A DNA stretch of 64,000 bases from Amphirosellinia nigrospora. Lineage: Eukaryota > Ascomycota > Sordariomycetes > Xylariales > Xylariaceae. How positions within the stretch are numbered: position 1 is the stretch's first letter; every line of letters begins with the position of its first letter. The notes beneath the pieces were generated by a model, which saw only the letters and a list, made by a program, of their open reading frames with translations, did not search any database and was not told where the DNA came from. Below, piece by piece: positions 16,144-57,204 of this stretch. The stretch is taken from positions 11,691,569 through 11,755,568 of the forward strand of contig SCHM01000002.1 of the NCBI GenBank assembly GCA_004123355.1, read 5' to 3'. Made by a program: the position numbers and the translations under genes.

Positions 16144-16148
16144 GCCGC

Positions 16149-16430
16149 TGTTATAATTATAATATTATTTACGTACGGAGTTAATATATTAGTTTTAACT
16201 ACGTACGATAGCTAATTATTAATTATAATATTAATTATTTATATAATAAAGTCGGGCTAGTATATTTGTTCGATTTAGTTATATAATATACTATAGTAGA
16301 ATTTTTTTTATATAAAGAAATTCTCCGCACGAAAGCTTAGCTTTTATACGAATAGTTAAAAAAATAAATTAATATATATTAATATTTATTTTATATTATT
16401 ATATATTATATATTTTTTAGCTATTTAATA
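16149..16430 (-). repeat. E1-outer 3' LTR
   Basis: About 282 bp, homologous to five other E1 LTR copies in the window. It keeps the intact TG at 16,149-16,150 next to the duplication GCCGC. The inner end is altered (TTAATA where less mutated copies have TTAACA). Confidence 0.8.
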
Positions 16431-16988
16431 TTAATTAATATTTTAAAAAATATAAATTAGCAAAATAAAAATAAAATTTAAACTTGATTATATAAGCTAC
16501 GTTTTTTATATCGTACTTTAGTTTTTTTAGTATTATAAAAAAAAAAATTAATTATTAATATATTTCGGTATTATATTTTTATACAAAAATTTAATTAATA
16601 ATGTATAATTATATTATTTTTTAATTATTATTATATAAACTACGTAAAAATTCGTAATATAATTTAATAACTTTTTATCCGCAATATTTTTAAATATAAT
16701 AAAAAATAATAATTAATCGTATAATAGCTAATATAAACAAACGTATAAAAACGTTATATTTTCGAAAAAGCAGCTAAAGCAACTTTTTATTTTTTTAGCT
16801 AATATTCTATATAATAGTATAGCTAAAAAATTGTTTAAAAAACCGATATATTTTTAAGTTTATATAAAAAACTATCAATTTTTATATATATAAAAATACT
16901 TTATAAAACTTTAAAATAATTATTATAAATAAATTAATATATAAATAATAAATTTATATATAAAATATAATTATATTTTATATAATAT

Positions 16989-18784
16989 ACTATATAACTA
17001 TCCTAGCTATATAACTATTTTAGCTTTTTTTAATTTTTATACAATTATTATTTTTTCTTTTATATTTTAATAACTAATAATAATACTATTATATAAAAAA
17101 AAGATTTATAGCTTGCTTTATAGGCTATAAAACATAATAAAAATTTAACTTTTTAGCGCGCTATAAAAATCTATAATATTTTTTATATAACTTTTATTAT
17201 TCGCTAGGCCGGAATTTTTCTAAAGCTTTAAATACGTTTATTAAAATACTAATTATTAAAATTCGAAAAAAAATTAATCGTACGATATATATTTAACCTA
17301 AATTCGCAAAAATTTTTATTTAAATTAAATAATATTAAAAATATAATTAATTAATTATTACGTAAATATAATATATTATTTATTAAAATTAATTAAGCTT
17401 TAAATTTTATATAACGATTATTTAATTTTTAAACGTATTTTAACTATTAAATTAATTATTAACGAATTTTATACGAAAATTTTAATAAATATTAAAAATA
17501 GTTTAAGCTTATATAAAACGTAATTATAGCTAAAAATATTTACGAAATAAATATTTATAATTTTAATAAAATAATAATTAAATATTATTTAAAATAATTA
17601 TAATATTATATAAACGTTATAAATAACTAAAAATTATTTAATAAAAATTAAAAATAAATAATTATTATTTATATTATTTATTATATAGCTATTTTATTTT
17701 GCTATATTATTTTAGCTAGGTTAATTTATTTATTATTTTAATATAAAAATAGCTATTTATTAACCGATTAAAAAATTAAAATAATAAAAATAGCTAAACT
17801 ATAACAAAAAAAATTTAAATTAAATTAAACATTTTAATTATTATATAATACGTTATATAAAGTTTTTTATTATTTTTAATTTTAAATAGCTATAAAAATT
17901 ATTATTTTATTAAATTTAAATTATATATTAAAAATATAAAATTATTACTTTTTATATATTTATTTATTTATTATATAAACTTTAGTTTTTAAATATTAAT
18001 TATTTTAATTTTTTAAAATAATTATACGGTAAATAAATCGATAAATTAGCTTAAATTTATATTATTTATATTAAAAAAAAAATTCTTTACGTTATTTTTA
18101 TATATAATAACGCTATAATAATATTAAAAAATATTAAAAAAAGCTTTTAAAAAGCTAGCTTTATTTTATACGATTTAAAATATATTATTTTATAATTTTT
18201 ATTTAAAAATTTAACTAAAATACTTTTAAAATTATCTAATAAACTTTAAATTTAAAAGTTATAAATATTTTATAATATAAAAATACTAAATTATAGTATT
18301 AAATATAAAATATAATATTAAATAGTTTTTTATAGTTATTTTAAATATAATTAATTTAATTATAAAAAAATAAATATATTAAAATATTAAATTATATTAT
18401 TTTAATTTAAAATAGCCGAACTTTAAATAAATAATTAAAATAAGCATTATTATACGAAAAATAAACGGATCTAAATTAAAAAATATCTATTATAAAAAAA
18501 ATAAAATTAAAAAACTAAAAAAGCTATTAAAAACTAAATAAATAATAAAATATAATTAAATAATCGTTATACGAAAAAAATATTATAAATAAACAATGCT
18601 ATAAAATTTATAGCAAACCTAAATATAATATACGTATATATAAAACAAAATAAAAACATTTAGCAAAAGTAATTCCGATTAAATTTAATTAATTTTTTAT
18701 ATTATAGTTAAATTATTTTAATTATTCGTACAAAAATGCTAAAAAATAGCTAGAATAGTTATATAACCAGGATAGTTATATAAT
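16989..18784. mobile_element. Tc1/mariner (Fot1/pogo-like) DNA transposon copy 1
   Basis: About 1.8 kb inserted in E1-outer: the sequence on either side is continuous in copy B (junction at about 21,003). Terminal inverted repeats are visible: the left end ACTATATAACTATCC and the right end's complement share ACTATATAACTATCC-like and TATATAACTATTYTAGC blocks with transition differences. The interior matches copies 2 and 3. The TIR sequence differs from copies 2 and 3, which suggests a sister subfamily. Length, inverted repeats and a TA-rich target fit Tc1/mariner of the Fot1/pogo kind. No transposase frame survives. Confidence 0.7.
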
Positions 18785-21700
18785 ATATTAACTTAAAAGA
18801 TTTTTAAAAAATATTAGCAAAAAATTTCGAAATAATAAAACCTAAAATATTTAATAAAATCGATATTTAAATTATTAAAAAGATTTATAATATTTTTTAT
18901 ATAAAAAACGTTTTAAATTAAAAACTTATAAAACGGTTAAAAAAAACTATATTATATAATTTATAAAAAGTAAATATATTTTAGCGTATAAATTTTAAAT
19001 TTTTATATAACTATTTTAAATAATATTTACGTTTTTTACGTTAAATTAATAACTTTAAAGTTAGCAAAATTTTTTTATATAATAAAGCAACTTTACGATT
19101 TTTTTTTTTAAATAAAAAAACAAACAAAAAAAAAATAAAAAAATAAATAAAAAATAGCCGCAAAATAACCTATATATATAACTAAAAGCTAGCTTTTTAA
19201 CTTTAAATAAAAAAATATTATATAAAATAAAATATTAAAAATAAAGTTCTAAAAACTTTTTATAACTATTAAACGTTATTTATTATTTATTTTAATTAAT
19301 AATTTATTTTTCGTACGAAAAAAATATATTATATTTTTAATATATAATAAAATATTTAGTTTTTTAAAATCTTTTTTAAATTTTAAAACAACTTATTTAT
19401 TATATAATATTAAATATAAAAGTATTTTTATTTAAAATTTAAATCTTTTTTATATATAATATTTAAAACGGAGTTATATTATTTATAAAATATTAAATTT
19501 TTTTAAAAATTTAGCAAAAAAAAAAAATTATTTTAAAAAGCTATACGATTTATTTTATAATAAAATATAATAGTTTATCGATTATTATTATAAGTTCGAA
19601 ATTATAAAAAACTAGTTTTATATTATATTTTTATAATATAGATTAATTATATAAAAATTATTATATATATATATTAGCTTTAATTATATATAAAAAAAAC
19701 GTATAATATTATAAATATATATTTTAATATAATTATAAACTATAATTAATATTAAACCGATTAAACTAATATTATTTTTATATAAATATATAAATAAAAA
19801 AAAAATTTATTTTTATACGAAATATTAAAAGTTATAATTAATAAGCTATTTAAAGTTTAAAAAATATTTAAAGCAAAATATTTAAAAAAAAATTTATTTA
19901 AATATAACTATTATATACCCGTATAAAATATTTTAAAATTCGAAATAATATTTATTTTTAAAAACTTACGTATAAAAGATTTTTTTTAAACTTTTATTTA
20001 TATTTTTAGGTTAAAAAAAACTTAATAATTTAGCATTTTATATAAAAAATAAAAAATTTTTACTATATAAATCGATAATATAATTAAATTAACCGTTATT
20101 TCGTATAATATAAAAATATTATATAATATTTTAAAAATTTTTAAAAATAATATATTAGTTAAAATTATATATATTATAATTATAATATTATTTACGTATA
20201 AAGTTAATATATTAATATTAACTATTATATAATAGCTAATTATTAATTATAATATTAGCTGTTTATATAATAAAGTTAAGCTAATATGTCTGCCCGATTT
20301 AGTTATATAATATATAGTAAAATTTTTTTATATAAAAAATTCTCCGTACGAAAGCTTAGCTTTTATACGAATAGTTAAAAAAAATAAATTAATATATATT
20401 AATATTTATTTTATTATTATTATATATAATATTATATTTTTTAACTATTTAATATTAATTAATATTTTTAGCTAAAAAATATAAATTAATAAAAATAAAA
20501 ATAAAATTTAAACTTAGTTATATAAGCTATATTTTTTATATTATTTTAGTTTTTTTAATATTATATTAATAAAAAAAGAATTAATTATTTTAATATATTT
20601 TAATATTATATTTTTATATAAAAGTTTAATTAATAATATATAATTATATTATTTTTAATTATTATTATATAAATTATATAAAAGTTCGTAATATAATTTA
20701 ATAATTTTTTATTATAATATTTTTAAATATAATAAATAATAATAATTATATAATAATTAATATAAATAAACGTATAAAAACGCTATATTTTCGAAAAAAT
20801 AGTTAAAATAATTTTTTATTTTTTTAACTAATATTTTATAATAATATAGCTAAAAAAATCGCTTAAAAAATTAATATATTTTTAAATTTTATATAAAAAA
20901 CTATTAATTTTTATATATAAAAATATTTTATAAAACTTTAAAAAATTATTATAAAATAAATTAATATATAAATAGTATTTATATATAAAATATAATTATA
21001 TTTATATAATTTAAAAAACTTTTAAAAAATATTAATAAAAAACTTTAAAATAATAAAACTTAAAATATTTAATAAAATTAATATTTAAATTATTAAAAAA
21101 TTTATAATATTTTTTATATAAAAATATTTTAAATTAAAAATTTATAAAATAATTAAAAAAAAACTATATTATATAATTTATAAAAAATAAATATATTTAA
21201 CGTATAAATTTTAAATTTTATATAATTATTTTAAATAATTTATATTTTTTATATTAAATTAATAATTTTAAAATTAATAAAGTTTTTTTATATAATAAAC
21301 AATTTTATAATTTTTTTTTTAAATAAAAAAATAAATAAAAAAAAAATAAAAAATAAATAAAAAAATAGCTATAAAATAACCTATATATATAACTAAAAGC
21401 TAGCTTTTTAATTTTAAATAATAAAACATTATATAAAAATAAAATATTAAAAAAAGTTTTAAAAACTTTTTATAACTATTAAACATTATTTATTATTTAT
21501 TTTAATTAATAATTTATTTTTTATATAAATAAAAAATATATTATATTTTTAACGTATAATAAAATATTTAGTTTTTTAAAATCTTTTTTAAACTTTAAAA
21601 CAATTTATTTATTATATAATATTAAATATAAAAATATTTTTATTTAAAATTTAAATTTTTTTTACGTATAATATTTAAAATAAAGCTTTTATTTATAAAA

Positions 21701-24700
21701 TATTAAATTTTTTTAAAAATTTAGCAAAAAAAAAAAATTTATTTTAAAAAGCTATATAATTTATTTTATAATAAAATATAATAGTTCGTTAATTATTATT
21801 AAAAGCTTAAAATTATAAAAATTAATTTTATATTATATTTTTATAATATTAATAATTATAAAAAATTATTATATATATTATATTAGCTTTAATTATATAT
21901 AAAAAAAATATATAATATTATAAACTTATATTTTAATATAATTATAAACTATAATTAATATTAAACTAATTAAACTAATATTATTTTTATATAAATATAT
22001 AAATAAAAAAAAAACTTATTTTTATATAAAATATTAAAAGTTATAATTAATAAATTATTTAAAGCTTAAAAAATATTTAAAATAAAATATTTAAAAAAAA
22101 TTTATTTAAATATAATTATTATATATATATAAAAATATTTTAAAATTTAAAATAATATTTATTTTTTAAAAACTTACGTACGAAAAATTTTTTTTAAACT
22201 TTTATTTATATTTTTAAATTAAAAAAAACCTAATAATTTAATATTTCGTATAAAAAATAAAAAATTTTATTATATAAATTAATAATATAATTAAATTAAC
22301 TATTATTTTATATAATATAAAAATATTATATAATATTTTAAAAATTTTTAAAAATAATATATTAGCTAAAATTATATAAATAATTATTTTTTAAAAAACT
22401 TACGTATAAATAAAAAATATTTTATTTACTAAAAAAAAAATACTAATTAATTAATTATATTTTTTAAAAAAAGTTTTGCGCGAAAAATTAATATTTTAAT
22501 ATATAAAATAATATTCGAAAATAAATTAATTTTAAAAAATTTTTAACTTATTTAACTAAATATAAAAACTATTTAAATATATATAATAAAAAAAAAAAAA
22601 ATTTAAATATATAAAATAAAAACATTATATAATATATTATAATAATATATTTATATATTATATAAAAAAAAAATATTTAATTAATAATTATAAATTAATT
22701 ATTTAATTTATTTATATTTAATAATTAATATTATATAAAATATTAAAATATTATTTAAAATATAAAAGCTTCGAAATTTTTTACTATAAAAAAATTATAA
22801 ATAAAAATTTATATATAAAAAAACTTAAAATTAAAAATATTTAAACTTTTAAAATAGCTAAAATAAACTTTAATAAAATTATATAATAATTTTAATTAAT
22901 ATAATAAAAATTAATAATTAAATTAGCTATATAATATTTTATATTTTAAATATTTTTATTTTATTTTTATTTTTTTTAAAAAATATAAACCGTTTAAAAA
23001 AATATTTAATAATATAAAAAATATTATTATATAAAAAAATAAAAATAATATTTTTATTATATATAAATAAAGCTATTTATTTTTTAATATTAGCCTGTAT
23101 TAAATAATTAGCTATTTTATAAAAACTAAACTATATTATTTATATAAATAGTTCGGATATTTTTATATAAAAAATTATATAAATATATTTTATATAAAAT
23201 ATAAAACTAAACAATTTATTTTAAAAAAATCTAGAAATTTTATTATTATTATTAAATATATAATAAAGCTTTATAGCAATTTAAATTTATAATTAAAAAT
23301 AATTATAAATTTAATTACGAAATAATTATAATATATATAAATAAATAATTAAAATATATTATATATTATTAATATTATTATATTATTTTAAATAATAATT
23401 TTTTAAAATTAATATTTATATAAAATATATAAAAAATATTATATAAATATTAGATTAATATTTATTAAAAACTTTTTAATAATATTATATATAATTTTAA
23501 AATAAATTTTTTATTAAATAAATTTAAAAAATATATAAAATAATTAATATATAATATTATAAAATATTTATCGAAACATATTAAATAATAAATAAAATAA
23601 AATAAATATATAAATTATTTAAATATATATATATATTTTTCGGGAAAAAATTAATATATATATAAATAATAAATTAATTTTATAAATAATAATAAAAATA
23701 TTAAATAATATTATTAGATTTAATAGTTTTATATTAATTTTTTTATTTTTAAAGTTTATTTTTATATTAATAAAAAGTTTTTTTATTTTTTTTATTATAT
23801 AAAAAATAATAGCTATTTAAAAAATAATAAAAATATTATATAAAAACTATATAAAAGTTAAAATTAGTTATACGATTAATAAATAAAATAAATTATTTTT
23901 ATATAATATATTTATATTTTTTTTTTAAAATAAAATTTTAATATAAAAAAATAAAATAAAATAAAAAAAACCGTATAAAATTAAAACAATTAAAAAATTA
24001 AATATAATTATAGTTTCGATTAATAAACTAATATATTTTTAATATATATAAATTAAACTATATTATTATATAAAAAATATTTAAGCGGATAATTTAAATT
24101 AAAATAATATATAATTTATATAGCTAATAATTATTAAAAAAAAATATAATTAGCTAAAAAAAAAAATTTAGTTTTATTATTATAATGTTTAAATATATTT
24201 ATTATATAATATTTAAATACTATAAACTTTTTTAATAAAAAAAAATAAACTTTTAAATTAATAATTAAACTATATAAATAAAATTATTATAACTTTTAAT
24301 AAACTATTTAAAAAATCGGACGTAATAAAAATTAATAAATTTATTATATAAAACGTTTTTAAATTTATTATATATAATTTAAATATTTATAAAAAAAATA
24401 TATTTTTAAGTTTTATTTCGTATAAAAAATTAAAAAAAAACTATAAAATTATACGAAAAATTTAAATTTATTATATAAAAATATATAATATTAAAAAAAT
24501 ATTATTTTAATTTAATTATTAACGATTTAATAAATAAATTAAAAATTAATTTTAATATTTAGTTTTATTTTTATATAAAATTTTAAATTTTATATAAACT
24601 TAAAAATATTATTTAAGTTTATATTTAGTTAAAAAATAAACTATTATATAATATTTATATTTATTTATTTTTAAAGCTAAAAAAAAAATATTTTTTAAAA

Positions 24701-26740
24701 ACTATTTTATATATTATATAACTTTTATATAGTTTAATTAAATTTAAATTATATTAGTTTAAAATATATTATTAATATTATTAAAAAAAACTTAAAATAT
24801 AAATATTTATATATAATTTATATTATTAGTTATATATAATAGTTTAAATATTTTTAAAATAATTAAAATATAAAAAATAATACGTTAAATTTTATTATTT
24901 TAAACTTTTTATTATGCAAAAAAAAAAAACTTAAATAAATAAAACTTTATATAAAGTTTAAAAAAATTTTATTTTTTAAATATTTTTTCGAATTTAATAA
25001 TAAAAAATTTTTTATATAAATAAAATATTATAATAATTTAAAAAACTAAACTAAAAATTTAGCTAAAATTAATTTTTATACGAAAAAATTTATTTAAGCT
25101 TATATTTTTTAATAAGCTAAAAAAATATATATTAATAATATATATTAATTTAAAACTATATATAATTTTACTATTATAGCTTAAATTATTAAGCTATAAA
25201 TATATAATATTAAAATATTAAATAAATAAATTAAATAATAAAAAAATAACTTATTAAAAAAGCTTACGTTTATTTTTTTCGATTTTTATTATACGAAGTT
25301 TTTTATTTTTATAAATAAATTATTTATAAATAATATAAATATAATTTTATAGTTTAAATTTATTATTATATTTATAATTAAAGCTTATATAAAAAATATA
25401 ATAAATTTAAAATTTAAAATCGAAAATAATATTATATATTAAAATTTAAATAAATATAAAAAATTACGCAAAATATTTTAGCTAACGAATTATATAATAT
25501 AATTAGCAGTTTTAATAATATTATTATTTTTTATATAATATTTTAAAAAATTATAAAAATATTTAATTTATTTTTAATATTTATTATTTTATATTTAGAT
25601 TTTAAATCGTTATATAACTATTTAATTAAGCTAAAAATAATTTAAAAAAAAAATTAATAATAAATATTATATTTTTTTAAAATTATAAAAAAAAAAAAAT
25701 CTTTAAAATATAATAAATTAATAATAAAAATAACCTAGCTAATATATTTATTAAATATATATTAAACTAAACATTAAAAACTTTAGTTTTTACGAATAAA
25801 TTATTTATATAAATCGAAATATTTATTAAAAAACCGTAAAAAATACGCTTATATAATAAATAGCAACTAAATATATATAAAAGCGATATATTACGTATAA
25901 ATATTTAAAAAAGCGGATATTATATATAAATAGTAAAAAACTTAAAAATTATAATAAAAATAATAACTAAAATTTATACTTTAAAAAACAATGTATATAA
26001 TTAATTTTTATCTTTTTTCTTTCCCCTTTTTAAACTTAAACTATATATAGTAAAAATAATAAACATTATGCGATATTAGTTAAACGGAGTACTTTAATAA
26101 TTAATATAACTGCTATATAAACTGTTTTAATATAAAACGACAATTTAGCTATAATTTTAAATAAAAATCGTATAAAAATTTTTTTTAATATATAAACTTC
26201 GCTTATATATTAGTAAAAATAATAATTAATAATACCTAGAAATAATATTATATAAAAAAATAAAAACGATTATATTTTTTTTATTTTATTATATAATAAA
26301 ATAAATTAGCTAAAATATATACTAGAAATTATTTATATAAATAAATAAATAAAAATATATATACGTTTATATATAACGTTAATATAAAGGTTTTATAGGC
26401 CCGACTTTTAGTAAAAAAGCTATAAACTTTAGTAGCGCTACTATTTTTTAAACATATAAAATTTTAAAACTATATAATACTATTAAAAACAAAAAACGTA
26501 AAACGTAAATAAAAACTTTAATAAAATTAATAAGTTTTATAGCAGTTATTATTTAATTAATTTTATTTTAATTATTTATTAATATAATATTTAAAAAAAC
26601 TTAAAAAATTTTATATAATAATAATAATAGCGGTAATAATAATAATATTATTACTAATATTATTAATACTATATTTATTTATAATAATTATTAAACTTAA
26701 TATTATATAAGTTTACGAAATTAATTAAAACATATATACG

Positions 26741-26742
<2 letters not shown>

Positions 26743-26775
<33 letters not shown>
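26743..26775. repeat. (AT)n microsatellite in E1-B, mirrored in D
   Basis: An unbroken AT run. Its counterpart in copy D is at about 27,553-27,586, and a third (shorter, interrupted) is in E1-outer at about 56,497-56,530. It therefore belongs to the E1 interior near the 5' LTR. Confidence 0.7.
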
Positions 26776-26777
<2 letters not shown>

Positions 26778-26874
26778 TATAAATATATGCGCGTAAAAAA
26801 AAAAAAAAATAAAAAAATAAAAAAATAATATAAAAATAACTTAACCTACGTATAATAGCAATAAATATAAAAGC

Positions 26875-27548
26875 TGTTAAGTAGCTAAGGGGTACGATAT
26901 TGTACGTAATAATAAATAAGATAAATATTAGTATATATCGATTTATTTTTTTTAACTATTTGTATAAAAGCTAGGCTTTCGTGCAGAAAATTTTTTTTAT
27001 ATAAAAAAAATTTTACTGCAATATATTATACGACCGAATTAAGCGGATATATTAGCCCGATTTTATTATATAAATAACTAATATTATAATTAATAATTAG
27101 CTATTATATATAATTAATACTGATATATTAACTTTATATGTAAATAATATTATAATTATAATATTAGCTTTTTTTTTTTTAGCTATAGCGTATTTTTGTA
27201 CGATTGCTTTTTTTAATATAAAAAATCTAAACGTAAAAAAAATATTAAATATATTATATAATAAATATATAAATAAAAAAACACCTAATAATATATTAAA
27301 TTATTATTTTTTAAAATATTTAATATTTATATAACCGTACATAAAAAAAAAAGTTAGCAAATATAAATAAAAAAGCTAATTTATATATAACTATTATATA
27401 TAATTTTTTTATTTAATTTATTTAAATATTTTAAAAAATTAAATAATACGTTGTTTTTATATTTACTATTATTATATATAAGTTAGGTTATTTTTATATT
27501 GCTTTTTTATTTTTATTTTTTTTTTTTTTTTTTATACGCGTATATTTA

Positions 27549-27587
<39 letters not shown>

Positions 27588-30500
27588 TTCGTACGTATAT
27601 TTTAACTAATTTTATAAACTTATATAATATTAAATCTAATAATCGTTATATAATAAATATAATATTAATAATAATATTAATATAAATAATATAACAATAT
27701 TAATAATATTAATAATAATATTATATATTATTATTATTATTATTATTATACGTAAAACTTTTTAAGTTTTTTTAAATATTATACTAATAAACAATTAAAG
27801 CAAAATCGCTATTAATATTAATAATAGCTATTATAAAACCTATTAACTTTATCGAGGTTTTTTATTTATATTTTACGTTTTTTGCTTTTAATAATATTAT
27901 ATAATTTTAAAACTTTATACGTTTAAAAAATAATAGCGCTACTAAAGTTTATAGCTTTTTTACTAAAAATTAAACTTATAAAGCTTTTATACTAATATTA
28001 TATATAAATATATATATATTTTTATTTATTTTATATAAATAATTTTAATATATATTTTAGCTAATTTGTTTTATTATATAATAAAACGAAAAAAATATAA
28101 TTATTTTTATTTTTTCGTATAATATTATTTTTAAATATTATTAATTATTATTTTTACCGATATATAAACAAAATTCGTACGTTAAAAAAATATTTTTATA
28201 CGATTTTTATTTAAAATCGCAATTAAATCGTTATTTTATATTAAAACAATTTACGCAGTAATTATATTAATTATTAAAATATTTTATTTATTTAATATTA
28301 TATAATACTAAGTTTTTAAAACGGCGTTTATAGCGTTTATATATAGCGATTATATAATGTTTATTATTTTTACTATATATAGTTTAAGTTTAAAAAAAAA
28401 ATAAAAAATAAAAAATTAATTATACGTATTATTTTTTAAAATATAAATTTTAATTATTATTTTTGCTATAATTTTTTAACTTTTTTACTATTTATATATA
28501 ATATTTATTTTTTTAAATATTTATATATAATATATTATTTTTATATATGCCCGGCTATTATTTATTATATAAATATATTTTTTATAATTTTTTAATAAAT
28601 ATTTTAATTTATATAAATAGCTTATTTATAAAAACTAAAGTTTTAATGCTTAGTTTAATATATATTTAATAAATATATTAGCTAAATTATTTTTATTATT
28701 AATTTATTATATTTTAAAGATTTTTTCTTTTTTTATATAACTTTTAAAAAATATAATATTTATTATTAATTTTTTTTTTTAAATTATTTTTAGCTTAATT
28801 AAATAATTATATAATAATTTAAAATTTAAATATAAAATAACTAATATTAAAAATAAATTAAATATTTTTATAATTTTTTAAAATATTATATAAAAAATAA
28901 TAATATTATTAAAACTATTAATTATATTATATAATTTGCTAGCTAAAATATTTCGCGTAATTTTTTATATTTATTTAAATTTTAATATATAATATTATTT
29001 TTAATTTTAAAATTTAAATTTATTATATTTTTATATAAACTTTAATTATAAATATAATAATAAATTTAAACTATAAAATTATATTTATATTATTTACGAA
29101 TAATTTATTTATAAAAATAAAAAGCTTTATATAATAAAAATTAAAAAAAATAAACATAAGTTTTTTTAATAGGTTATTTTTTACTATTTAATTTATTTAT
29201 TTAATATTTTAATATTATATAATTATAGCTTAATAATTTAAGCTATAATAATAAAATTATATATAACTTTAAATTAATATATATTATTAATATATATTTT
29301 TTAGTTTATTAAAAAATATAAGTTTAAATAAATTTTTTTATAAAAATTAACTTTAGCTAAATTTTTAGTTTAGTTTTTTTAAATTATTATAATATTTTAT
29401 TCGTATAAAAAAATTTTTTACTATTAAACTTAAATAAATATTTAAAAATAAAATTTTTTTAAACTTTATACGAAATTTTGCTTATTTAAGTTTTTTTTTT
29501 CGCGTAATAAAAAGTTTAGCGTAATAAAGTTTAATATATTATTTATTTATATTTTAATTATTTTAAAAATATTTAAACTATTATATATAACTAATAAATA
29601 TAAATTATATATAAATATTTATATTTTAAATTTTTTTTAATAATATTAATAATATATTTTAAATTAATATAGTTTAAATTTAGCTAAACTATATAAAAAT
29701 TATATAATATATAAAATAGTTTTTAAAAAATATTTTTTTTTTAGCTTTAAAAATAAATAAATATAAATATTATATAATAATTTATTTTTTAATTAAATAT
29801 AAGCTTAAATAATATTTTTAAGCTTATATAAAATTTTAAAGTTTTATATAAAAATAAAACTAAATATTAAAATTATTTATTAGTTTATTTATTAAATCGT
29901 TAGCAATTAAATTAAAATAATATTTTTTTAATATTATTATATTTTTATATAATAAGTTTAAACTTTTTATATAATTTTATAGTTTTTTTTTTAATTTTTT
30001 ATATAAAGCAAAATTTAAAAATATATTTTTTTTTATAAATATTTAAATTATATATAATAAATTTAAAAACGTTTCGTATAATAAATTTATTAATTTTATT
30101 ATATTTAACTTTTTAAATAGTTTATTAAAAATTATAATAATTTTATTTATATATAGCTTAATTATTAGCTTAAAAGCTTGCTTTTTTTTTTTATTAAAAA
30201 AATTTATAATATTTAAATATTATATAATAAATATATTTAAATATTATATAATAATAAAGCTAAGTTTTTTTTTTTAGCTAATTATATTTTTTTTAATAAT
30301 TATTAATTAATAAATTATATATTATTTTAATTTAAATTATTTATTAAAATATTTTTCGTATAATAATATAGCTTAATTTATATATATTAAAAATATATTA
30401 ATTTATTAATTAAAGCTACAATTATATTTAATTTTTTAATTATTTTAATTTTATATAGTTTTTTTATTTTATTTTTTTTTTTATATTAAAACTTCGCTTT

Positions 30501-40800: not shown

Positions 40801-40997
40801 AATATTATATATATTTAAATATTATATTAAGCAGAAAAAACTTTAAACAATATAAAAAAAGCTAATATAATAATTTAATAATATAAAGGCTTTATAAAAA
40901 ATTATATTAGTAAAAACCTGAAAGCGATTTTTTTTTTCGCTAAAAAATAATTACGATTTTAACCCTAGTTAAATTACTTTTTTTTTCAAAAAAAGTA

Positions 40998-41289: not shown

Positions 41290-41621
41290 TATAATAATTA
41301 ATTATTAATTATAATATTAGCTATTATATAATAAAATAAAGCTAATATATTTATTTAATTTAGTTATATAGTATATTATAGTAGAATTTTTTTTGTATAA
41401 AAAAATTTTCCGTATAAAAGCTTAGCTTTTGTATAAATAGTTAAAAAAAATAAATCGATATATATTAATATTTATTTTATTTATTATTGCGTACAATATT
41501 ATACTTTTTAGCTATTTAATATATAAGCTATTTAAACGTATATATAATATTTTTTAGAAAAAAGATCGATATATATATAAATAATAAATTAATTTTATAA
41601 ATAATAATAAAAATTAAATAA

Positions 41622-43452: not shown

Positions 43453-43926
43453 TACTATTAAACTTAATAATTTTATACTAATTTTTTTATTTTTAGAACT
43501 TATTTTTATATTAATAAAAAGTTTTTTTATTTTTTTTTATTATATAAAAAATAATAACTATTTAAAAATAATAAAAAATTATATAAAAATTATAAAAAGT
43601 TAAAATTAATCGCGTAATTAATAAATAAATAAATTATTTTCGTATAATATATTTATATTTTTTTTTAAAATAAAGTTTTAATATAAAAAAAAAAATAAAA
43701 TAAAAAAACCGTATAAAATTAAAACAATCGAAAAATTCAATATAATTATAGCTTCGATTAATAAATTAATATATTTTTAATATATATAAATTAAACTATA
43801 TTATTATACGAAAATATTTAAATAAATAATTTAAATTAAAATATATAATTTATATAGCTAATAGTTACTAAAAAAATATAGCCGGCTAAAAAAAAAAAAT
43901 TTAGCCCTATTATTATATAACGTTTA

Positions 43927-44130
43927 TAATAAAACCTTTAAAAGGTTTATATTACTAGTAGTTTTTTTACGCGGAGTATAAAAGGAACTATTTAATAATA
44001 CCTATATTTAAATAAATAGCTAGCATATTATTAGTTAAAGAATTTATTATTAGATCTATTATATAGATCTAATAATAAATTCTTTTTTTTTAAATTAAGC
44101 TTTATTTTATAACCTATAATATTTTTTTTA
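43927..44130. repeat. E4 left LTR
   Basis: About 204 bp, homologous to 51,925-52,123. It contains a perfect 21-bp-stem hairpin at 44,039-44,083. Confidence 0.75.
44039..44083. repeat. 21-bp perfect stem, 3-base loop, in the E4 LTR
   Basis: The left arm AGAATTTATTATTAGATCTA(T) is followed by TAT and its exact reverse complement. The right LTR keeps the same layout with a few mismatches (about 52,027-52,073), so it was part of the original element. Confidence 0.85.
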
Positions 44131-47100
44131 AAATAATACTTTATTACGTAGTTTTATTATAATATTAAACTATACTAAAAACTATTTATTTTTAAATTTT
44201 TTAAAGTTAAAATATAAATTTTTTTAGCAGCAATTAGCGCATAATTTATATATATTTATTAATTAAAACAAATATTACGCTTAACGTTAATTTATTTTAT
44301 ACTTTTATTTATATTTTTTATAAAACTTTTAAATAAACTAATTATTTAGCTTTAAAAAAGCTTAATAAAATATTTTTATATTTTAAATATTAATTTTTAT
44401 AATATAGCTAAAATTATTATAAAGTTATAAACGTTATAATTTTTACTAATTAATTATTCTAAATATTCTAGTTTACTATAAAGTTTTTAAACGTTTAGTT
44501 TATTATTAAAATTTATAAATATACTCCTACTATTAAAATATAATTATAAATTATATATATTTTATTTTTTTTATTTATATATAATTTATTTTTATTTAAG
44601 TTATTATTTACAATATTATATAAAAATAATAAATCGTAAAACTAATATAATAATAATTTTTTTTATATATTTAATTACTTGTTAAATTAAACGCTAGATT
44701 TATTATTAAAGAATTTTATTTAAAAATATTTTTTTTTAATTTTTAGCATAATAATTATTAAAATAAACATTATTATTATTAATATAACCTTATTAAAACG
44801 CTTATAAATTATTTAATAATATAATTTAAAAAGTTAAAATAAAATAAAAAAAATAAAATTAACGCAAAATAACTAAAGCTAAAACTAATATTAATAAAGC
44901 TTAATTAGCAATAATAAATTAAAAATTTATAAAGTTTTCGTTTAAAAACTAAACTAATATTTAAAATTTAATATAAAAACTATAAATATATTTTAAAATA
45001 ATAATAAAATAATAATTTTAAGCAAAAATAAATTAAACTAAATATAAAAAAACTATAAAAAATATTAAATAAATTAATAATAAATTCGATTTTATTATAT
45101 AAATAAATTAAAATTTTAGCGCTTTATAAAGTTCTAAAAAATTAATATTATATTTTTATTAATATTTTACTTTTAACTATATTAGATTAATAAGCTTTTT
45201 ATAGCATAGCGATTAATTTAAATAATATAGCTATAAATAAAAAAAATAATAATAATGCTCTTGCTTTTATTTTAAATATAACAAACGTAGCAATAATACT
45301 TTTGCCCCTGCTTTTTTTTATTGCTTTAAAAGTAATACAAAAAATAAAAATATTTTTTAATTAAAATAAACAATAATAATAATAATAATATAATAAAATA
45401 ACAATATAAAATAAATAACTTAATTAATTTAAATTTATTAAGCAATAAAACTAGCTTTAGTAATTAACTATAATAATAAATATATTATTATAAAATTTTA
45501 TTTTAATATTTATAGTAAAAAATATTTATAAAATTAAACGTAAAAACATTAAAGTTTTAAACTTTAATTAAAACAATTTAAAAATAAAAAAATCGTTATA
45601 AATAAAAAAAATATTATTTATATAAATATATATATTTTCTTAATATATTTAAGCTATATATAAGTTTAATAATATAAAATTATTAAATAGTAGCTAAATT
45701 TTAAAACTATTTAATTATTTTTTTATAAGTTTTACTTTTTTATAATAAAATAATAAAATTAAGCTTATTAATTATTTATTAGCAAAATAAACTTAAGTTT
45801 AATATTTAAAAAGCTAAAAAACGTTTTAAATACGCTTTAAATATATTATAAAAAAATTCTTTAAAAATAACTTTTTTTTATTTAATATAATATAAAACAA
45901 AAATATTTTATTTAATTTATTTAATATAAACTATAATATACTTATAAAAATAAAACTTTAATATAAATAATTCTAATTAGCAAATATTATAAAAACATTT
46001 ATAATTAATAAGCTAAAATAATTATTAATTATATCCGTTTATTAAAAAAAAATATATTAAATAATATATAAAAAAAAATTAATAAAGCGCGCTATAAATT
46101 AAAATAAAAATAAAATATAAATTTTTAAATATTAAACTTTTTTATAACTACTTAAAATAATAATAAAAACTTTTAGAATTTATTTTAAATATATAATTAT
46201 AGATATTTTAATTATTATTAATTAAAAAATAAATATTAATTTTGCTATAAATTTATTATTTTTTTAATAATAAATATAATAAATAATAATAATTATAAAT
46301 AAAATTATAGCTATTATAAAAAAAATAATAAAAAAATACTTATAAAAAAAAAAATATAATAATAAATAAAAAACGTAATAATAATATTATAATAATAATT
46401 AAAACCGTAGTTATAACTATAACCGTAGCTATAACTATAGCTATAACTATAGTAATAATTATAAATTTATTATAATAAAAAATATAATAGTTATTATAGC
46501 GTATATTAAGCTAATAATATACGTTTAAATAAAAAAAATCTAAATATAATATTAATAAAAATTTAAAATATAATACTTTTTATATATATTTAGTTTAGCT
46601 TTTATTTATTTAAATATATAAAAAGTATAAATTATTTAATATTTTTATTTATATATATAAAAATATAAACTATATTTTATTAAATATATAGTATATTTAA
46701 TATTTTTTTATTTATCGCTTTTAAATAATATATATAAATATTATTTAAATACTATTTTTATAAAATAAACTTTTTTAAATTTAACTAATATAAATTAGCT
46801 AAAAAAATATAATTAAAAAATAAAATACTTTTAATAATAATTTATTATTTATAAAAATAATTAACAAAATCTTTAAGTCGGAAATTTATATTTAAAACGT
46901 TAAACGTAAACGCGTATAATAAAACTTTATATTTAAACTATATATATTTTCGCTTTATATATATATTTTGCTAATTAATTAAAATATAAAAATTATATAT
47001 CAATTTAAATATAAATAAAACTATAATTAATAATAAATATTTTAATACGTTAAAATATATAATAAAAAACGCGAAAGTTAAATAATTACTATTAAAAATA

Positions 47101-49599
47101 AGCGCGTAAAAATAACGCGTTAAATAAAATTTAAATTTTTTACTTAAAAATTAATAATAATAAATAACTTAAAATTATAAAATAAAAAAAAAAATTAATT
47201 ATAAATAAAAAACTATAGCTAAATATACTAATTAATAATAATTCTTTATTTTTATAAAGCTATTATTAATTATTTTAAAAATTTATTTTTTTATAATTTT
47301 AATAATTTTTTATTAATTTTAAAGTTTTAATTTATAATTATAAATATATATAAAAAGTTATTAATATATATATACTATTATAGCTAATAAAAATTATATT
47401 ATAAATTAAATATAAACTATTACCCGTTAATTATAACTTTATTTATAGCAGTATATAAAAATATAATAAATATTATAATAAACGTAAAAACTTTTAAAAT
47501 TATTTTAGTTATTAATATTACGAATACTTTAATTAAAATAAACAAAAATACTAAAATAAAACAAATTATAAAATTATAATAATAATATATATATTAGCTT
47601 ATAAAAATTAGCTATAAAAACTTTAGCTATTATAATATTATTTTAATAATATTATTAACTAAAATAATTAGCTTAAAATTTTAGCTATTTTAAATTTATT
47701 TATTATTATAATATTAAATTTAATATAACGCTAATTATTATAACTTTATAATTAATATAATATTAATAAAACTAATATTATAAATAAATTAGTTAATTTT
47801 ATAATTGCTTTATAATAACGTTTAATAAAACTAATAATTATATTATTAGCTTTACGTAAAAATAATATTTTTATTTTAGTTATTAATATTACTAACGTTT
47901 AACTTTTAAATATTTTTTTTATTATATATATATAATTTTATTATAAATATTAAAATTGCGCCGCTATTAAAAAAACTATATATATTAATACTAAAAAAGC
48001 TTTTTAAACTTAAGCTTTTAAAAATATATTTATTTTAAATTAAAAAGCTTATAGATTTTTAAAAATATATTAATAATAATATTTATATTTATATTAAAAA
48101 AACTTTTAAAATAGCTAAGTTTATTAAAATTATTAAAGCTTATAATATTTAAATAAATAAAAATAAAATTAATATTTTTAAAATAAAGCAGCTAAAGATT
48201 TTTTTTATTAATAATTAATAAAAAAAAACTAAATATAAAAAATTTTTAGCCGAAAAAAAAAAATATTTTAATAAAACTTATAATAACTTTATAAATAAAT
48301 TATATAATTTAAAAATAATAAAACTATATTTTCGTATATTTTATATTTATTACTTAAAAAAAAATTTATAATATAAATAAAAACTAAATAATTATTAATT
48401 TATAATAATTTAATAAAATTATTATTTTTAATAGCTATTTTTTTTTTTATAAAATAAAAATCGGAAGTTTTATAAAAAAGCTTATATATTTTACGTTAAT
48501 ATAACTAGTTTTTTTATTAATTTCTAGTTTATTTTAACTATAAAATAAATTTATTATTATTAGCTTTTATAGTATAAAATAATTTAATATAATATTAATA
48601 AAATATATAAATTCTTTTAATTATATTTAAAAATATATAAATAATTTTTTTTTTTATTTTTATTTTTATTATTATTTTATTAATAATATTATTATTTTTT
48701 TAATATATTTAAAAAATATATATAGTATTAAATATTATTTTTAGTTTATTTTAGTTAAAAAATATTATATATTAAAAAGTTTTTTATTAATTTTTTTTAT
48801 AAAACTTTTCGGATTTTATATTAATACTTTAAAAATATTACTATTATTAAGCGCGTATAAATATTTAAATAGTTTATATTTTTTAAAAACTTTTAAACTT
48901 TTAAATAATATTTTAATATAAATAAATTCTTTTATAATTTTTTTTTTATTATATAATTAACCAAGCTTTTATAAAAACGTAAAATAGCTTTATTTATTAA
49001 AATCGCTAAAAAAAAAAATAATAAATAATAACCTAAGTTATTATAAATATTATATATAAACTATATATTTATAATTTTATACTAGCTAAAATAGCTTTTT
49101 TAATATTATTTAAAACGTTATTTATTTTAAAACTATGTTTTATTATTATAACCTAATTATATTTTATATTTATAAATTAATAATATTTCGAACGAAATTT
49201 CGGCGTTATAATTTTTTATATTAAACTAAATTTTAATAAAAACCGGGCGAACTTATACTTTTTAATAATATAACTAATTTATATTTAAATTAATATTTAT
49301 TTATAAGCCGAAATTAAATATAGCTTTTTTAAACAAAAAATAATATATTTTATATAAACTATAAAAAAGCTTTATATTTAATTTATTCGAATAAACATTA
49401 TATAATATTTTAATAAATTATTTAGCTATAAAAAATATATTAATATTAGTGTACTTTATAGCTTAATAAAGGATTAAACTAGTGCGTATATAAGTAAACA
49501 TATTAAAATAGTTTTAAAAAATCTTATAAATTAAGTTTAACTATAAATCTAGTTTATAATTTTATGTTTATATATATATACGTATATAGAATAAATTAA

Positions 49600-49775
49600 C
49601 CCCTTAGGGCTAATAAAGCCCTAAGCTTGTTTACGGCTTAAGTATACCCGAGCTTACTAATACGTTCTATATGCTCTGTTTTTTTTTTAAGCAAGCTAGC
49701 TAGCTGGCGTGTTTTAGTTTTACTTAAGCAGGCTAGCAAGGCTGGCGTGCTCAGGTTAAAGTGGGCTACTCTATT
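49600..49775. other. GC-richer island inside E4
   Basis: About 175 bp with normal base composition in an otherwise A/T-only element. It holds a perfect hairpin, TTAGGGCT-AATAA-AGCCCTAA (49,604-49,624), and two direct copies of a roughly 25-bp motif TTAAGCA(A/G)GCTAGC...GGCGTG (49,687-49,711 and 49,724-49,749). No coding frame. It may be sequence that was single-copy and so escaped RIP. Confidence 0.6.
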
Positions 49776-51924
49776 ATAAATATATTAACTAAATTTTATT
49801 AAATACTTTATTATTAATAAAATAAATAATCGGCTTATTAATTTATCGGTATATTTATTATAATATAACTTTTAAATATTTTATTTATTAAAATATTTTA
49901 ATTATATTTTAAATATATTAAATTAATTTATTATAATATAAAAATACGGTCGACCTAAAAAATAAATTAAAATAGTTATAAAAATATAAATTAAACTTTA
50001 TATAAATATAATAAAATATATTATAAAAATAATAATAAATATATATTTAAACGTAATTTCGAACTAAAATATAAAGCAGATTTTAATATAAAAAAATTCT
50101 AAACAAACTTTATTAAAACTAATTTTATAAACTACGCAATAATAAAAACGCTATTATTTTTTTAAAGCTAAATACTTATTTTTATTATAAACGGTTTAAT
50201 TATAACAAATATAAAAAAATTAAATAATTTTACGTTTTATATATAATACGTAAATAAATATATATTATATATAACAAAAATATTATTTTAAACCTAACTA
50301 TATAATAAAAGCTTTAAAACTATATTTAATTTATAAAAAGTTATAATACGTTAAAAAATACTATAAATATTACTTAAAATTAATATTAATCGTAATAATA
50401 AACAAAAACTAATAAATAGCTTACGTTTAATTAAACCTAAAAATATATTATTAATATAAATAATCGCAATTAATTTTATTTTATTATTATTTTTAGTTAA
50501 ATTATAAAATACTTATAATAATTAAAAAGCTTTAATATATATAATTATATAATAATATTTTTTATTATATATTAAATAAACGTTTATAATTTTTAATAAT
50601 ATAAAATATATTGCTAAAATAAATAATAGTTTAATTAAATAATTATTTTAAATAATTAAAATATTTTAAAAAAATTATTTTTAATCGTAATTATAAGTTT
50701 ACTTTTAATTTTAAAAAAATATAAAAAATACTAAATATTAAATTATTAATAATTATTATATATATTTATAAAAAAATAATTTATCCGAAAAAAAAAACTA
50801 AATAATTAAAATTATAATACGTTTTTTATAATTATATATACTTTAAGTCGAACTAGCTTAATATAATCCCCGTTTTATAATAAAACTTTAATTTTATATT
50901 TTTATAAACTATATAATTTATCCTATAAAATAATTATTTAAGTTTAAACTTTTTAGTTTTTTAATATATTTATAAGCTAAATAAATATATATAATTTTAA
51001 AAATAAAATTTTTATATAATTATTTATAATAAAAGCTAAATTAGCTATAAATTTTATTGCTATTATAGCAAAAAAACATTTTAATAATAAATATTAAATA
51101 TTAAATTTAAACTAAATAATAAAGTTTTTTTGCTTATATAATAGCTATTATTTATTCGGCAAGTTTTTTAAAAAATATTCGTAATAATAAGTTAAACTTT
51201 AAATTATTAAGCGCAAAGTTAGTAATTTAGCTTATAAATTAAACTTTTTAAATATTATTATATATACTTTATTATTTTATTGCGTATTATACTATATAAA
51301 AAATAAAAACTTTTAAGCGAATAATATTATTATTAAAGTTTATTAAAACTAATTAATATTTTAATAATAATATAAAAACAATATTTACGAAATTAAAGTT
51401 ATATTTAAATATTATTTTAACTAAAAAAAAATAATTTTAACTATTTAATTAAATAAAAAAAATAAAATTATAAGTATAACCGTTAATATTTACGTATTAT
51501 TTTTAATATTTATAAAAATTTATTAATAATATTAGTTTAAATATAGTTTTTGCTTTATATTACTAAAAAGAAAAGTTTTCTATAAAACTATTTATATTTA
51601 AACTTATATTTAAACAACTAAAATAAAAAATAACATTTTTATAATAAGCTACGCAAAATAATTAATATTTTAGCTTTAGCGTTAATATAATTTTAGCACT
51701 AATTTTTATTAACCCTTTTATTATTAAGTTACTATATTTAAATACTTATAAATAATTTTACTTTTCGTTAAAGCTTTAAGTTATAATATTTATAAATAAA
51801 ATAATAAAAAAAATAAAATAAGCAAAAATATTATTTAATATTATATAAAAAGAATTATAATTATAGTATAATTTAGCTAAATCGATCTATTAAGTTAGCA
51901 AAAACTTTTTTATATTTAGTATTT

Positions 51925-52123
51925 TAATAAAACTTTAAAAAGTTTATATATTAATAGCTTTTTTACGCGGAGCGCAAAAAAAAATTACCTAATAATATTA
52001 TATCTAAATAAATAGCTAGCACACTACTAGTTAAAAATCTATTATTAGATCTACTATATAAATTTAATAATAGATTTTTTTCTTTAAATTAAGCTTTACT
52101 TTATAACCTATAATATTCTTTTA
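51925..52123. repeat. E4 right LTR
   Basis: About 199 bp. Same order of words as the left LTR, including ACGCGGAG and a slightly decayed version of the hairpin. Followed by GTTTA. Confidence 0.75.
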
Positions 52124-54180
52124 GTTTAAATATATTTATTATATAATATTTAAATATTATAAACTTTTTAATAAAAAAAAAAAAAACACTTTTAAATTAA
52201 TAATTAAACTATATATAAATAAATTATTATAACTTTTAATAAACCGTTTAAAAAATTAAACGTAATAAAAATTAATAAACTTATATATAAAGCGTTTTTA
52301 AATTTATTATATATAATTTAAATATTTATAAAAAAAATATATTTTAAGTTTTATTTTATATAAAAAATTAAAAAAAAACTATAAATTATATAAAAAGTTT
52401 AAATTTATTATATAAATATAATAATATCGAAAAAATATTATTTTAATTTAATCGTTAATAATTTAATAAATAATTAATAATTAATTTTAATATTAGTTTT
52501 ATTTTTATATAAATTTAAAGCTTTATATAAATTTAAAATATTATTTAAGCTTATATTTAATTAAAAAAACTATCGTATAATTTATTTATTTATTTTTAAA
52601 ACTAAAAAAAAATATTTTTTAAAAACTATTTTATATATTATAATTTTTATAGTTTAATTAAATTAACTATATTAGTTTAAAATATTATTAATATTATTAA
52701 AAAAAATTAAATATAAATATTTATATATAATTTATATTTATTAATTATATATAATAGTTTAAATATTTTTAAAATAATTAAATATAAATAAATAATATAT
52801 TAAGCTTTATATATTAGATTTTTTATTATACGAAAAAAAAAAACTTAAATAAATAAAACTTCGCGTAAAATTTAAAAAACTTTATTTTTTAAATATTTAT
52901 TTAAGTTTAATAGCAAAAAATTTTTTTATATAAATAAAATTATAATATTTAAAAAAACTAAAACTAAAAATTTAGCTAAAATTAACTTTTATATAAAAAA
53001 TTTATTTAAGCTTATATTTTTTAATAAACTAAAAAAATATATATTAATAATATATATTAATTTAAAACTATATATAATTTTATTTTATAGTTTAAATTAT
53101 TAAGCTATAATTATATAATATTAAAATATTAAATAAATAAATTAAATAATAAAAAATAATTTATTAAAAAAACTTATATTTATTTTTTTCGATTTTTATT
53201 ATATAAAGTTTTTTATTTTTATAAATAAATTATTCGCGAATAATATAAATATAATTTTATAGCTTAAATTTATTATTATATTTATAATTAAAGCTTATAT
53301 AAAAAATATAATAAACTTAAACTTTAAAATTAAAAATAATATTATATATTAAAATTAAATAAATATAAAAAATTACGCGAAATATTTTAGCTAATAAATT
53401 ATATAATATATATTAATAGTTTTAATATTATTATTTTTATATAATATTTTAAAAATTATAAAATATTTAATTTATTTTTAATATTTATTATTTTATATTT
53501 AGATTTTAAATTATTAATATTATTTAGTTAAACTAAAATAATTTAAAAAAAAAATTAATAATAATATTATATTTTTTTAAAAATTATATAAAAAAAAAAA
53601 ATTTTTAAAATATAATAAATTAATAATAAAAATAATCTAGCTAATATATTATTAAACGTATATTAAACTAAATATTAAAACTTTAGTTTTATAAACAAAC
53701 TATTTATATAAATTAAAATATTTATTAAAAACTATAAAAAGTACGCTTATATAATATAGCAGCTAAATATATATAAAACAATATATTATATATAAATATT
53801 TAAAAAATAATATTATATATAAATAGTAAAAAAATTAAAAAATTATAGTAAAAATAACGATTAAAATTTATACTTTAAAAATAACGCGTATAATTAATTT
53901 TTTATTTTTTTTTTTCTTTTTTAAACTTAAACTATATAATAAAAATAATAAATATTATACAATCGCTATATTAAACGCTATAATGCTATTTTAAAACCTA
54001 ATATTATATAATATTAATTAAATAGAATATTTAATAATAATATAATTATTATATAAACTATTTTAATATAAATAATAATTAATTATAATTTTAAATAAAA
54101 ATTATATAATATTTTTTTTAACGTATAAACTTCGTTTATATTTAATAAAATATAATTAATAATATTAAAAAATAATATTA

Positions 54181-55997
54181 ATATAATATATAAATATTTT
54201 ATATATAAATCCTGTATATTTTTCTATTTTTATACTTTTTATTTTTATTTCTAAATATTTTAACAACTAATAATAACGCTATTATATAAAAAAACAATTT
54301 ATAGCTTATATTACGAGCTATAAAACGTAATAAAAAATTATCGTTATAATATATTATAAAATTTATAATGTTTTTTAATTGATTTTTATATATATTACGA
54401 TAAAATTTTATTTAAATAAACTAAATAATTAATAATATATAAATTATTAGAATTCGAAAAAAAATTAATCGTATAATATATATTTAATTTAAATATACGA
54501 AAATTTCCGCTTAAATTAAATAATATTAAAAATATAATTAATTAATTATTATATAAATATAACGTATTATTTATTAAAATTAATTAAGCTTTAAACTTTA
54601 TAATAATTATTTAATTTTTAAACGTATTTTAACTATTAAATTAATTATTAGCAAATTTTATATAAAATCTTAATAAATATTAAAAATAGTTTAAGTTTAT
54701 ATAAAACGTAATTATAGCTAAAAATATTTAAAAAAAAATATTTATAATTTTAACGAAATAAAATTTATAATAGCTAAATATTGTTTAAAATAATTATAAC
54801 GTTATATAAACGTTATAAATAATTAAAAGCTATTTAATAAAATAATTAAAAATAAATAATTATTATTATATTATTTTATTATATAGCTATTTTATTTTAT
54901 TATATATTATTTTAACCGGATTAATTTATTTATTATTTTAATATAAAAATAACCGTTTATTAACCGATTAAAAAATTAAAATAATAAAAATAACTAAACT
55001 ATAAACGAAAAAAATCTAAATTAAATTAAATATTTCAATAATTATATAACGTATTATATAAAAAATATTTACTACTTTTTAATTTTAAATAGCTATAAAG
55101 TTATTATTTTATTAAATTTAAATTATACGCTAAAAAATATAATATTATTATTTTTTATATATTTGTTTTTTATTATATAAACTTTAGCTTTTAAATATTA
55201 ATTATTTTAGTTTTTTAAAATAGTTATATAATAATAAAATTAATAAATTAGCTTAAGTTTATATTATTTATATTAAAAAAAAAATTTTTTTATATTATTT
55301 TTATTATATAAAATTATAATAATATTAAAAAATATTAAAAAAACTTTCGAAAAACTAGCTTTATTTTATACGATTTAATATATATTATTTTATAACTTTT
55401 GCTTAAAATTTAACTAAAACGCTTTTAAAATTATCCGATAAATTTTAGATTTAAAAATTATAAATATTTTATAATATAAAAAATATTAATTATAAGCTTA
55501 ATATATTAAATTAAAATCGTATAATATTAAAACAGCTTTTTTATAATTGTTTTAAATATAATTAATTTAATTATAAAAAAATAAATATATTAAAATATTA
55601 AGTTATATTATTTTAATTTAAAATAGCTAAATTTTAAAAAATAAATTATAAACTAAGCTAATATTATTAATAAAAAATAACGGATTTAAGTTAAAAAACA
55701 CTTATTATATAAAAAAAACAAAATTAAAAACTAAAAAAGCTATTAAAAGCTAAATAAATAATAAATATAATTAAATAATTATTATATAAAAAAAATATTA
55801 TAAATAAATAATATTATAAAATTTATAATAAGCTTAAATATAATATACGTATATTAAAATAAAATAAAATATCTAGCGAAAATAATTCCAATTAGTTTTA
55901 ATTAATTTTTTATATTATTAAAATTATATTAATTATTCGTACAAAAGTGCAAAAAAGTGTGCAAAATGTTTATATATAAAATACTTATATATTACAT
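54181..55997. mobile_element. Tc1/mariner (Fot1/pogo-like) DNA transposon copy 3
   Basis: 1,817 bp with TA directly on both sides (54,179-54,180 and 55,998-55,999). The terminal inverted repeats begin AT(A/G)TAATATATAA(A/G)TATTTTA and run to about 35-60 bp with transition differences. The interior is homologous to copies 1 and 2. The E1 sequence outside is continuous in copy B near 26,255. No transposase frame survives. Confidence 0.8.
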
Positions 55998-56911
55998 TAT
56001 ATAAAAAATAAAATAATTGTATTTTTTTGTTTATTATATAATAAAATAAATTAACTAAAATATATATATATTTATATATAACGCTAGTATAAAATTTATA
56101 AGTTTAATTTTTAATAAAAAAGCTATAAACTTTAATAGTACTGCTATTTTTTAAACGTACGAAGTTTTAAAACTATATAATACTATTAAAAATAAAAAGC
56201 GTAAAATATAAGCAAAAACTCTAATAAATAATAAGTTTTATAGCAGCTATTATTAATATTAATAATAATTTTACTTTAATTGTTTATTAATATAATATTT
56301 AAAAAAACTCGATAAACTTTATATATAATAATAAAATAATATAATAATAATAATAATATTACTATTAATATTATTAATATTATTAATATTATTAATATTA
56401 TTATTAATATTATTACTAATATTATACTTATTATATAACGATTATTAAATTTAATATTATATAAGTTTATAAAATTAGTTAAAATATATATATAAAAATA
56501 TATATACGTATATATATATATATATATATAAATATAAATATATACGCGTAAAAAAAGAAAAAAAAAAAAAAAACAGAAAATAGTATAAAATAACTTAATT
56601 TATATATAATAATAATAAATATAAAACAACGTATTATTTAATTATTTAAAATATTTAAACAAATTAAACAAAAAAATTATATAATAATTACGTATAAGTT
56701 AGCTTTTTTATCCGTATTTATTAATTTTTTTTTTTATATATAATTATATAAACATTAAATATTTTAAAAAAAATAATTTAATATATTTCGGGCGTTTTTT
56801 TATTTATATATTTATTATATAATATATTTAATATTTTTTTTATATTTAAATTTTTTATATTAAAAAAACAATTATATAAAAGTACGCTATAACTAAAAAA
56901 AAAAAAACTAA

Positions 56912-57199
56912 TATTATAATTATAGTATTATTTACGTATAAAATTAATATATTAGTTTTAATTATATATAATAACTAATTATTAACTATAATATTAACTA
57001 TTCGTATAATAAAGTTAAGCTAGTATATTTGCCCGATTTAGTTATATAATATATTGCGGTAAAATTTTTTTTATATAAAAGAATTTTCTATACAAAAGCC
57101 TAGCTTTCGTACAAATAGTTAAAAAAAATAAATCGATATATACTAGTATTTATTTTATTTATTATTACGTACGATATTGTACCCCTTAGCTACTTAACA
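56912..57199 (-). repeat. E1-outer 5' LTR
   Basis: About 288 bp. Its outer end, reading AGCTACTTAACA on the plus strand, is the least mutated E1 LTR end together with the one at 26,875. It is followed by GCCGC, matching the duplication on the far left. Confidence 0.8.
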
Positions 57200-57204
57200 G
57201 CCGC

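Follow-up and report, generated by a model that had tools for sequence, protein, structure and literature searches.

How some 41 kb of extremely AT-rich DNA came to lie within the 64,000-nucleotide stretch of contig SCHM01000002.1 examined here (positions 11,691,569 to 11,755,568; hereafter the window), and whether it can be traced to a single event, is the question raised by this locus. The segment at 16,149-57,199 is very probably the product of one founding insertion of a long terminal repeat (LTR) retrotransposon, designated E1-a, with later elements nested within it. In the proposed history, the 7.36-kb E1-a would have inserted once, duplicating the 5-bp target GCCGC, and would then have received three transposons with terminal inverted repeats (M1-M3), a second LTR element (E4) and further E1 copies; recombination between two of the latter, oriented alike, may have left a full-length copy (E1-b) with unmatched flanks and removed about 1.2 kb of E1-a. 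E1-b, in turn, would have taken in an inverted copy (E1-c) and, in its 3′ LTR, another LTR element (X). Repeat-induced point mutation (RIP), in which C is changed to T on both strands and CpA is favoured, would have driven the whole stack to about 9% GC.

The evidence for a single founding element lies foremost at its two ends. The 5′ LTR of E1-a (16,149-16,430, + strand) begins with TGTT and the 3′ LTR (56,912-57,199, + strand) terminates with AACA, giving E1 the TG...CA ends and the direct-orientation LTR pair of an LTR retrotransposon; at other LTR ends the expected TG or CA reads TA, a change that RIP would produce. The alignment of the outer LTRs comprised 230 identical columns, 51 transitions, one transversion and a few indels. 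When all six E1 LTR segments were aligned, a check proposed in the first-pass annotation, the outer two proved to be of the same family and to have in common a transversion, TTAGTTTTAA, at a place where the other four segments read TATTAA. That annotation had also reported the same five bases outside both outermost LTRs, and GCCGC was indeed found directly adjoining them, as the left (16,144-16,148) and right (57,200-57,204) target-site duplication (TSD). The pentamer occurs five times on the + strand between about 14,900 and 57,400, both TSD copies included, and the probability of meeting it by coincidence at precisely the second site was estimated arithmetically at about 1e-4 to 1e-3. Since the outer LTRs differ mostly by transitions, share a private transversion and are flanked by GCCGC, they are, judged from their sequence, of one family and very probably belong to one element. 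It would be highly improbable for them to derive from two different E1 insertions, brought together as the block grew through rearrangement or the chance insertion of neighbours. In favour of that reading, the block contains several E1 copies, one of which (E1-b) has flanks that do not match, but the GCCGC match at the exact LTR ends, the transversion common to the outer pair and the collinear order of the intervening E1-a pieces, described below, all speak for a single insertion.

Following E1-a between its ends requires that the mutational state of the block be taken into account. The flanks contain 47.6% and 51.3% GC, whereas single kilobases of the block contain 3-17%. CpA and TpG stood at 0.23 and 0.18 of expectation inside the block, against 1.02 each in the left flank, and the ratio (CpA+TpG)/(ApC+GpT) ranged from 0.10 to 0.30 across 11 measured stretches of element, the host flanks giving 1.15 and 1.13. 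This depletion, together with copy differences that are mostly transitions, constitutes a RIP-type signature, and because of the CpA/TpG pattern RIP is the probable mutational agent. The block was therefore compared with itself in a purine/pyrimidine (RY) alphabet, in which C is read as T and G as A, hiding RIP changes and keeping transversions and indels. The comparison resolved the block into collinear segments, many at 97-100% RY identity. E1-c, the sole uninterrupted E1 copy (7,362 bp), served as the reference for the map. Over 5,758 columns, E1-a, E1-b and E1-c were 99.3-99.6% identical to one another in RY and 90-91% in raw sequence, the pattern to be expected if nearly identical copies had accumulated transitions. 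Reading RIP-mutated DNA in this manner thus recovers element borders and junctions.

On this map, whose E1-a piece borders are good to about 15 bases on E1 coordinates, E1-a was recovered in order and on the + strand at 16,149-16,988 (E1 1-849, RY identity 0.989), 18,813-20,171 (E1 867-2206, 0.995), 41,522-41,619 (E1 3420-3518, 0.99), 43,478-43,926 (E1 3544-3999, 0.996), 52,124-54,200 (E1 about 4000-6139, 0.993 as measured on 52,141-54,200) and 56,008-57,199 (E1 6127-7362, 0.996, carrying the 3′ LTR). These pieces make up one complete element with its TSD, spanning E1 positions 1 to 7,362, apart from about 1.2 kb (about 2207-3419) at the site of E1-b. They are separated by M1 (16,989-18,812, with boundaries good to a few bases), E1-b, M2 (41,620-43,477), E4 (43,927-52,123, 8.2 kb) and M3 (54,201-56,007). 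E1-b is itself split on the + strand into a first part at 20,172-26,874 (E1 1 to about 6,780), a continuation with the start of its 3′ LTR at 34,237-34,582, and the end of that LTR at 41,291-41,521. The intervals are occupied by the complete E1-c, inverted (26,875-34,236, − strand), and by X (34,583-41,290, 6.7 kb). Four of the five LTR elements have matching flanks, namely GCCGC for E1-a, AAAGC for E1-c, ATAAT for X and GTTTA for E4, and the 5-bp TSD of E1 is accordingly present in two of its three copies, E1-b being without one. The first-pass annotation had assigned the block to a single E1 plus elements B, D, E2, E4 and three DNA transposons; with its B, E2, D and E4 presumed to be E1-b, E1-c, X and the element at 43.9-52.1 kb, the collinear E1-a pieces bear this out, with the restriction that a "single E1" presupposes the loss of 1.2 kb where E1-b now lies. 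That the nested arrangement is in part an assembly artefact is very unlikely. Assembly is difficult where repeats are long and alike, and a collapse might account for the absent 1.2 kb, but the copies differ by about 9-10%, so that long reads would place them, and four matching flank pairs are not expected from misassembly.

The nested arrangement also provides the order of events. Because an interrupted element must be older than whatever interrupts it, E1-a predates E1-b, E4 and M1-M3, and E1-b in turn is older than both E1-c and X. What this yields is a sound partial order: M1-M3, E4 and E1-b are mutually unordered, as are E1-c and X. The order of arrival previously suggested therefore stands for the outer E1 coming first and for E1-c and X lying inside E1-b, whereas its two later time tiers are reduced to this partial order. 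Ordering by LTR age was considered and rejected, the divergence of the LTRs being too small: the E1 pairs differ by one (E1-a), four (E1-b, by eye partly an alignment artefact) and two (E1-c) transversions, and the E4 and X alignments contain three each, of which, by eye, none (E4) and one (X) fall inside the LTRs and the rest in the flanks.

Several observations weigh against a single founding insertion followed by simple nesting. In such AT-rich DNA, the ATAAT and GTTTA matches are weaker evidence than GCCGC or AAAGC, and the interiors of X and E4, about 15 kb of the 41 kb, were assigned by LTR pairs and flanks only. No Pfam family was matched in any translated frame of the block elements tried, with stop codons read as X: neither a reverse transcriptase nor an integrase in the three + frames of two E1-a pieces, no family and no Pol domain in the three + frames each of X and E4, and no family and no DDE transposase in the six frames of M1. 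The depth of RIP-type depletion does not follow the inferred ages, since at E1 860-2210 the GC content is 9.5% in E1-a, 4.6% in E1-b and 4.3% in E1-c, and at E1 4000-6050 it is 6.3%, 8.2% and 7.0%, respectively; E1-a being richer in the former region and poorer in the latter, GC depth cannot order the layers. Within E4, a 190-bp island at 39.8% GC has escaped the depletion. To these is added the junction of E1-b, whose flanks, ATATA and TATAA, do not match, and exactly where E1-a is without 1.2 kb. RIP cannot account for this mismatch, because the two flanks differ by transversions, and a history of pure insertion fails at E1-b because of the mismatch and the missing sequence together.

At this junction, E1-a halts at E1 2206 on the left of E1-b and resumes at 3420 on the right, and both E1-b LTR termini are intact. 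Recombination between two E1 copies inserted in the same direction within E1-a would delete the sequence between them and leave one full-length element whose flanks do not match, which is a good fit to what was found. In plants, intact elements without TSDs are listed among the products of unequal recombination (introduction of PMC7251063). E1-b resembles these elements in being intact with unmatched flanks and differs in that recombination is a proposed origin here, in copies mutated by RIP. It is tentatively proposed, on suggestive grounds, that E1-b is a chimera: two E1 copies would each have inserted into the outer E1 and then crossed over with one another. The distribution of private transversions is consistent with such an origin. 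Across 4,123 clean three-way columns (1,869 up to E1 4000 and 2,254 beyond), 13 private transversions were assigned to E1-a, 11 to E1-b and eight to E1-c. Those of E1-b were distributed 1/10 up to and beyond E1 4000, compared with 7/6 in E1-a and 4/4 in E1-c, a skew with P values of 0.016 (binomial), 0.023 (Fisher) and 0.034 (permutation), obtained on small counts, uncorrected and with the cut at 4000 chosen post hoc. These limits of the test count on the opposing side, as do seven further transversions between E1-b and E1-c in E1 2207-3419, which are unassignable without E1-a and with which the skew would fade if they were E1-b's own.

Those seven transversions, by leaving the chimera test open, also lend room to a simpler history, in which E1-b inserted in the ordinary way and one TSD and the 1.2 kb of E1-a were lost by flank deletion or integration damage. 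This history needs one event fewer, and, with the E1-b LTR termini intact, a loss on one side of E1-a only; the deletion, however, would have had to end exactly at the LTR end, and those private transversions of E1-b that can be assigned lie mostly in its 3′ part. Loss by deletion is possible, with odds slightly below those of the crossover, neither being more likely than not. The distinction matters for the question whether copies can recombine ahead of their divergence through RIP: if the crossover is true, homologous crossing-over would have occurred between copies before they were driven apart, and the junction would preserve in physical form a trace of the time between insertion and RIP.

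Whether E1-a also founded the AT-rich block as a whole is a separate matter. The first-pass annotation had treated the entire block as one insertion between 16,144 and 57,204, which stands for 16,149-57,199 and not for the start of the block, given that 1.2 kb of RIP-marked DNA lies outside the outer LTR. RIP-marked AT-rich DNA extends from about 14,960 to about 57,252. Its left portion, here called Z (14,960-16,143), may predate E1-a or may reflect leakage of RIP; measured over 14,981-16,143, it has 17.8% GC, a TpA/ApT ratio of 1.38, a (CpA+TpG)/(ApC+GpT) ratio of 0.33 and an abrupt left edge. E1-a may therefore not have been the first component of the RIP-marked DNA. That Z is an older repeat and the true start of the block, into which E1-a entered about 50 bp from the right end, has close to an even chance of being correct. 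The strong RIP marking over 1.2 kb on the left of E1-a, set against about 48 bp of low GC past the TSD on the right, and the abrupt left edge would fit an element split near its end. An 11-bp direct repeat, AGCTATACTAT, is present near both edges (14,970 and 57,224) and would suit an older insertion, but at weak significance, with a P value of 0.013 under a Markov control whose edge zones were picked after the repeat had been seen, and of 0.053 against 60-mers drawn from Z. Other features do not favour an older repeat: no terminal repeat was recognised in Z, no Pfam family was matched in its six frames and no second copy was found in the window; AT-richness goes on to the right of the edge, in a patch of 28% GC at 57,300-57,349; and RIP in single-copy DNA has been reported for Cladosporium fulvum (PMC9453070). 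A relationship of Z to other elements of the block was also sought and rejected, a loose alignment being no better than shuffled controls and a 40-mer comparison likewise. At the left edge itself (14,856-14,974), four copies of TTAGCAAGCTA were seen, the last of them where the mutated sequence begins. The E1-a target across the flanks at 16,119-16,148 and 57,200-57,220 is palindrome-like by eye (AATAGCGGCA ... TGCCGCGCTATT).

Nested, RIP-mutated blocks are a well-known kind of structure; the particular features of the present one are its very low GC and the junction at E1-b. In Mycosphaerella graminicola, Dhillon et al. (2014, PMC4522978) reported 78 nested clusters of 7.5-63 kb, 49 of them with an LTR base element and 35 of these TSD-verified; the largest of the 35 in their Table 4 is 47 kb, and a figure legend describes a 47-kb cluster with the TSD TGGAA. 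In view of this table, the remark in the first-pass annotation that AT blocks of this type have rarely been traced back to one founding insertion is not supported. An LTR base element, a short TSD, later elements nested within and lowered GC are common to those clusters and the present one, which differs in its inverted E1-in-E1 arrangement, its inverted-repeat transposons and the stretch of base element that is missing at one of the nested sites. The AT-isochores described for Leptosphaeria maculans (PMC4210507) are likewise mosaics of truncated elements degraded by RIP, LTR retrotransposons for the most part, lying between GC-equilibrated gene regions, with 33.9% GC as opposed to about 9% here. 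The AT-rich blocks of Trichoderma reesei are also RIP-marked, interspersed and dividing gene regions (PMC5496416), but almost all transposons reported there are fragmented or rearranged relics, whereas whole elements are still outlined in the present block. The locus offers a clean worked example of how an extremely AT-rich block can arise from a single insertion.

As regards the nested elements themselves, the LTRs of X are about 300 bp long (AGTTACG...CGTAACT), and its border allows a second reading, a duplication 6-7 bases long in place of ATAAT. X and E4 each show an LTR pair with a TSD, as E1-a does. No exact match to a 27-base pattern taken from the LTR of X was found in viral contigs and prokaryote genomes, as expected of fungal DNA. 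The GC-richer island of E4 (49,600-49,790, RIP index 0.71) holds, by eye, a near-repeat of about 37 bp and is possibly a short insertion that escaped RIP. Among the inverted-repeat transposons, the terminal arms differ by no transversions in M1 (16,983-17,044 / 18,790-18,726) and M3 (54,179-54,235 / 55,999-55,939) and by one in M2. M2 and M3 differ by 17 transversions over 1,840 aligned columns, against 48 between M1 and M3 and 55 between M1 and M2. TA target sites were seen by eye for M1 and M3, and for M2 with one extra base, TA being very common in this DNA. M1-M3 are candidate Tc1/mariner-type elements; for E1, E4 and X, no protein domain that would place them in a superfamily was recognised in the frames tried. 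Purine three-base periodicity gave no clear coding signal (largest value 3.5, with no control computed), and neither a tRNA nor, at gathering thresholds, an Rfam match was present in the window.

In the sequence around the block, genes with a PDDEXK_12 (PD-(D/E)XK nuclease-like) domain were found on both sides in the same orientation, at 13,051-13,551 (− strand; E-value 9.6e-40) and 61,516-63,044 (− strand; 1.6e-47 and 4e-14). An open reading frame (ORF) at 13,542-14,306, the neighbour of the left gene, had no domain match. Other flanking ORFs (2,266-2,889, 8,946-9,449 and 59,969-60,739) include a HET-domain protein, a protein kinase fragment and a LysM-domain protein, and the HET-domain gene in the flank, together with the RIP-type signature, points to a fungal host.

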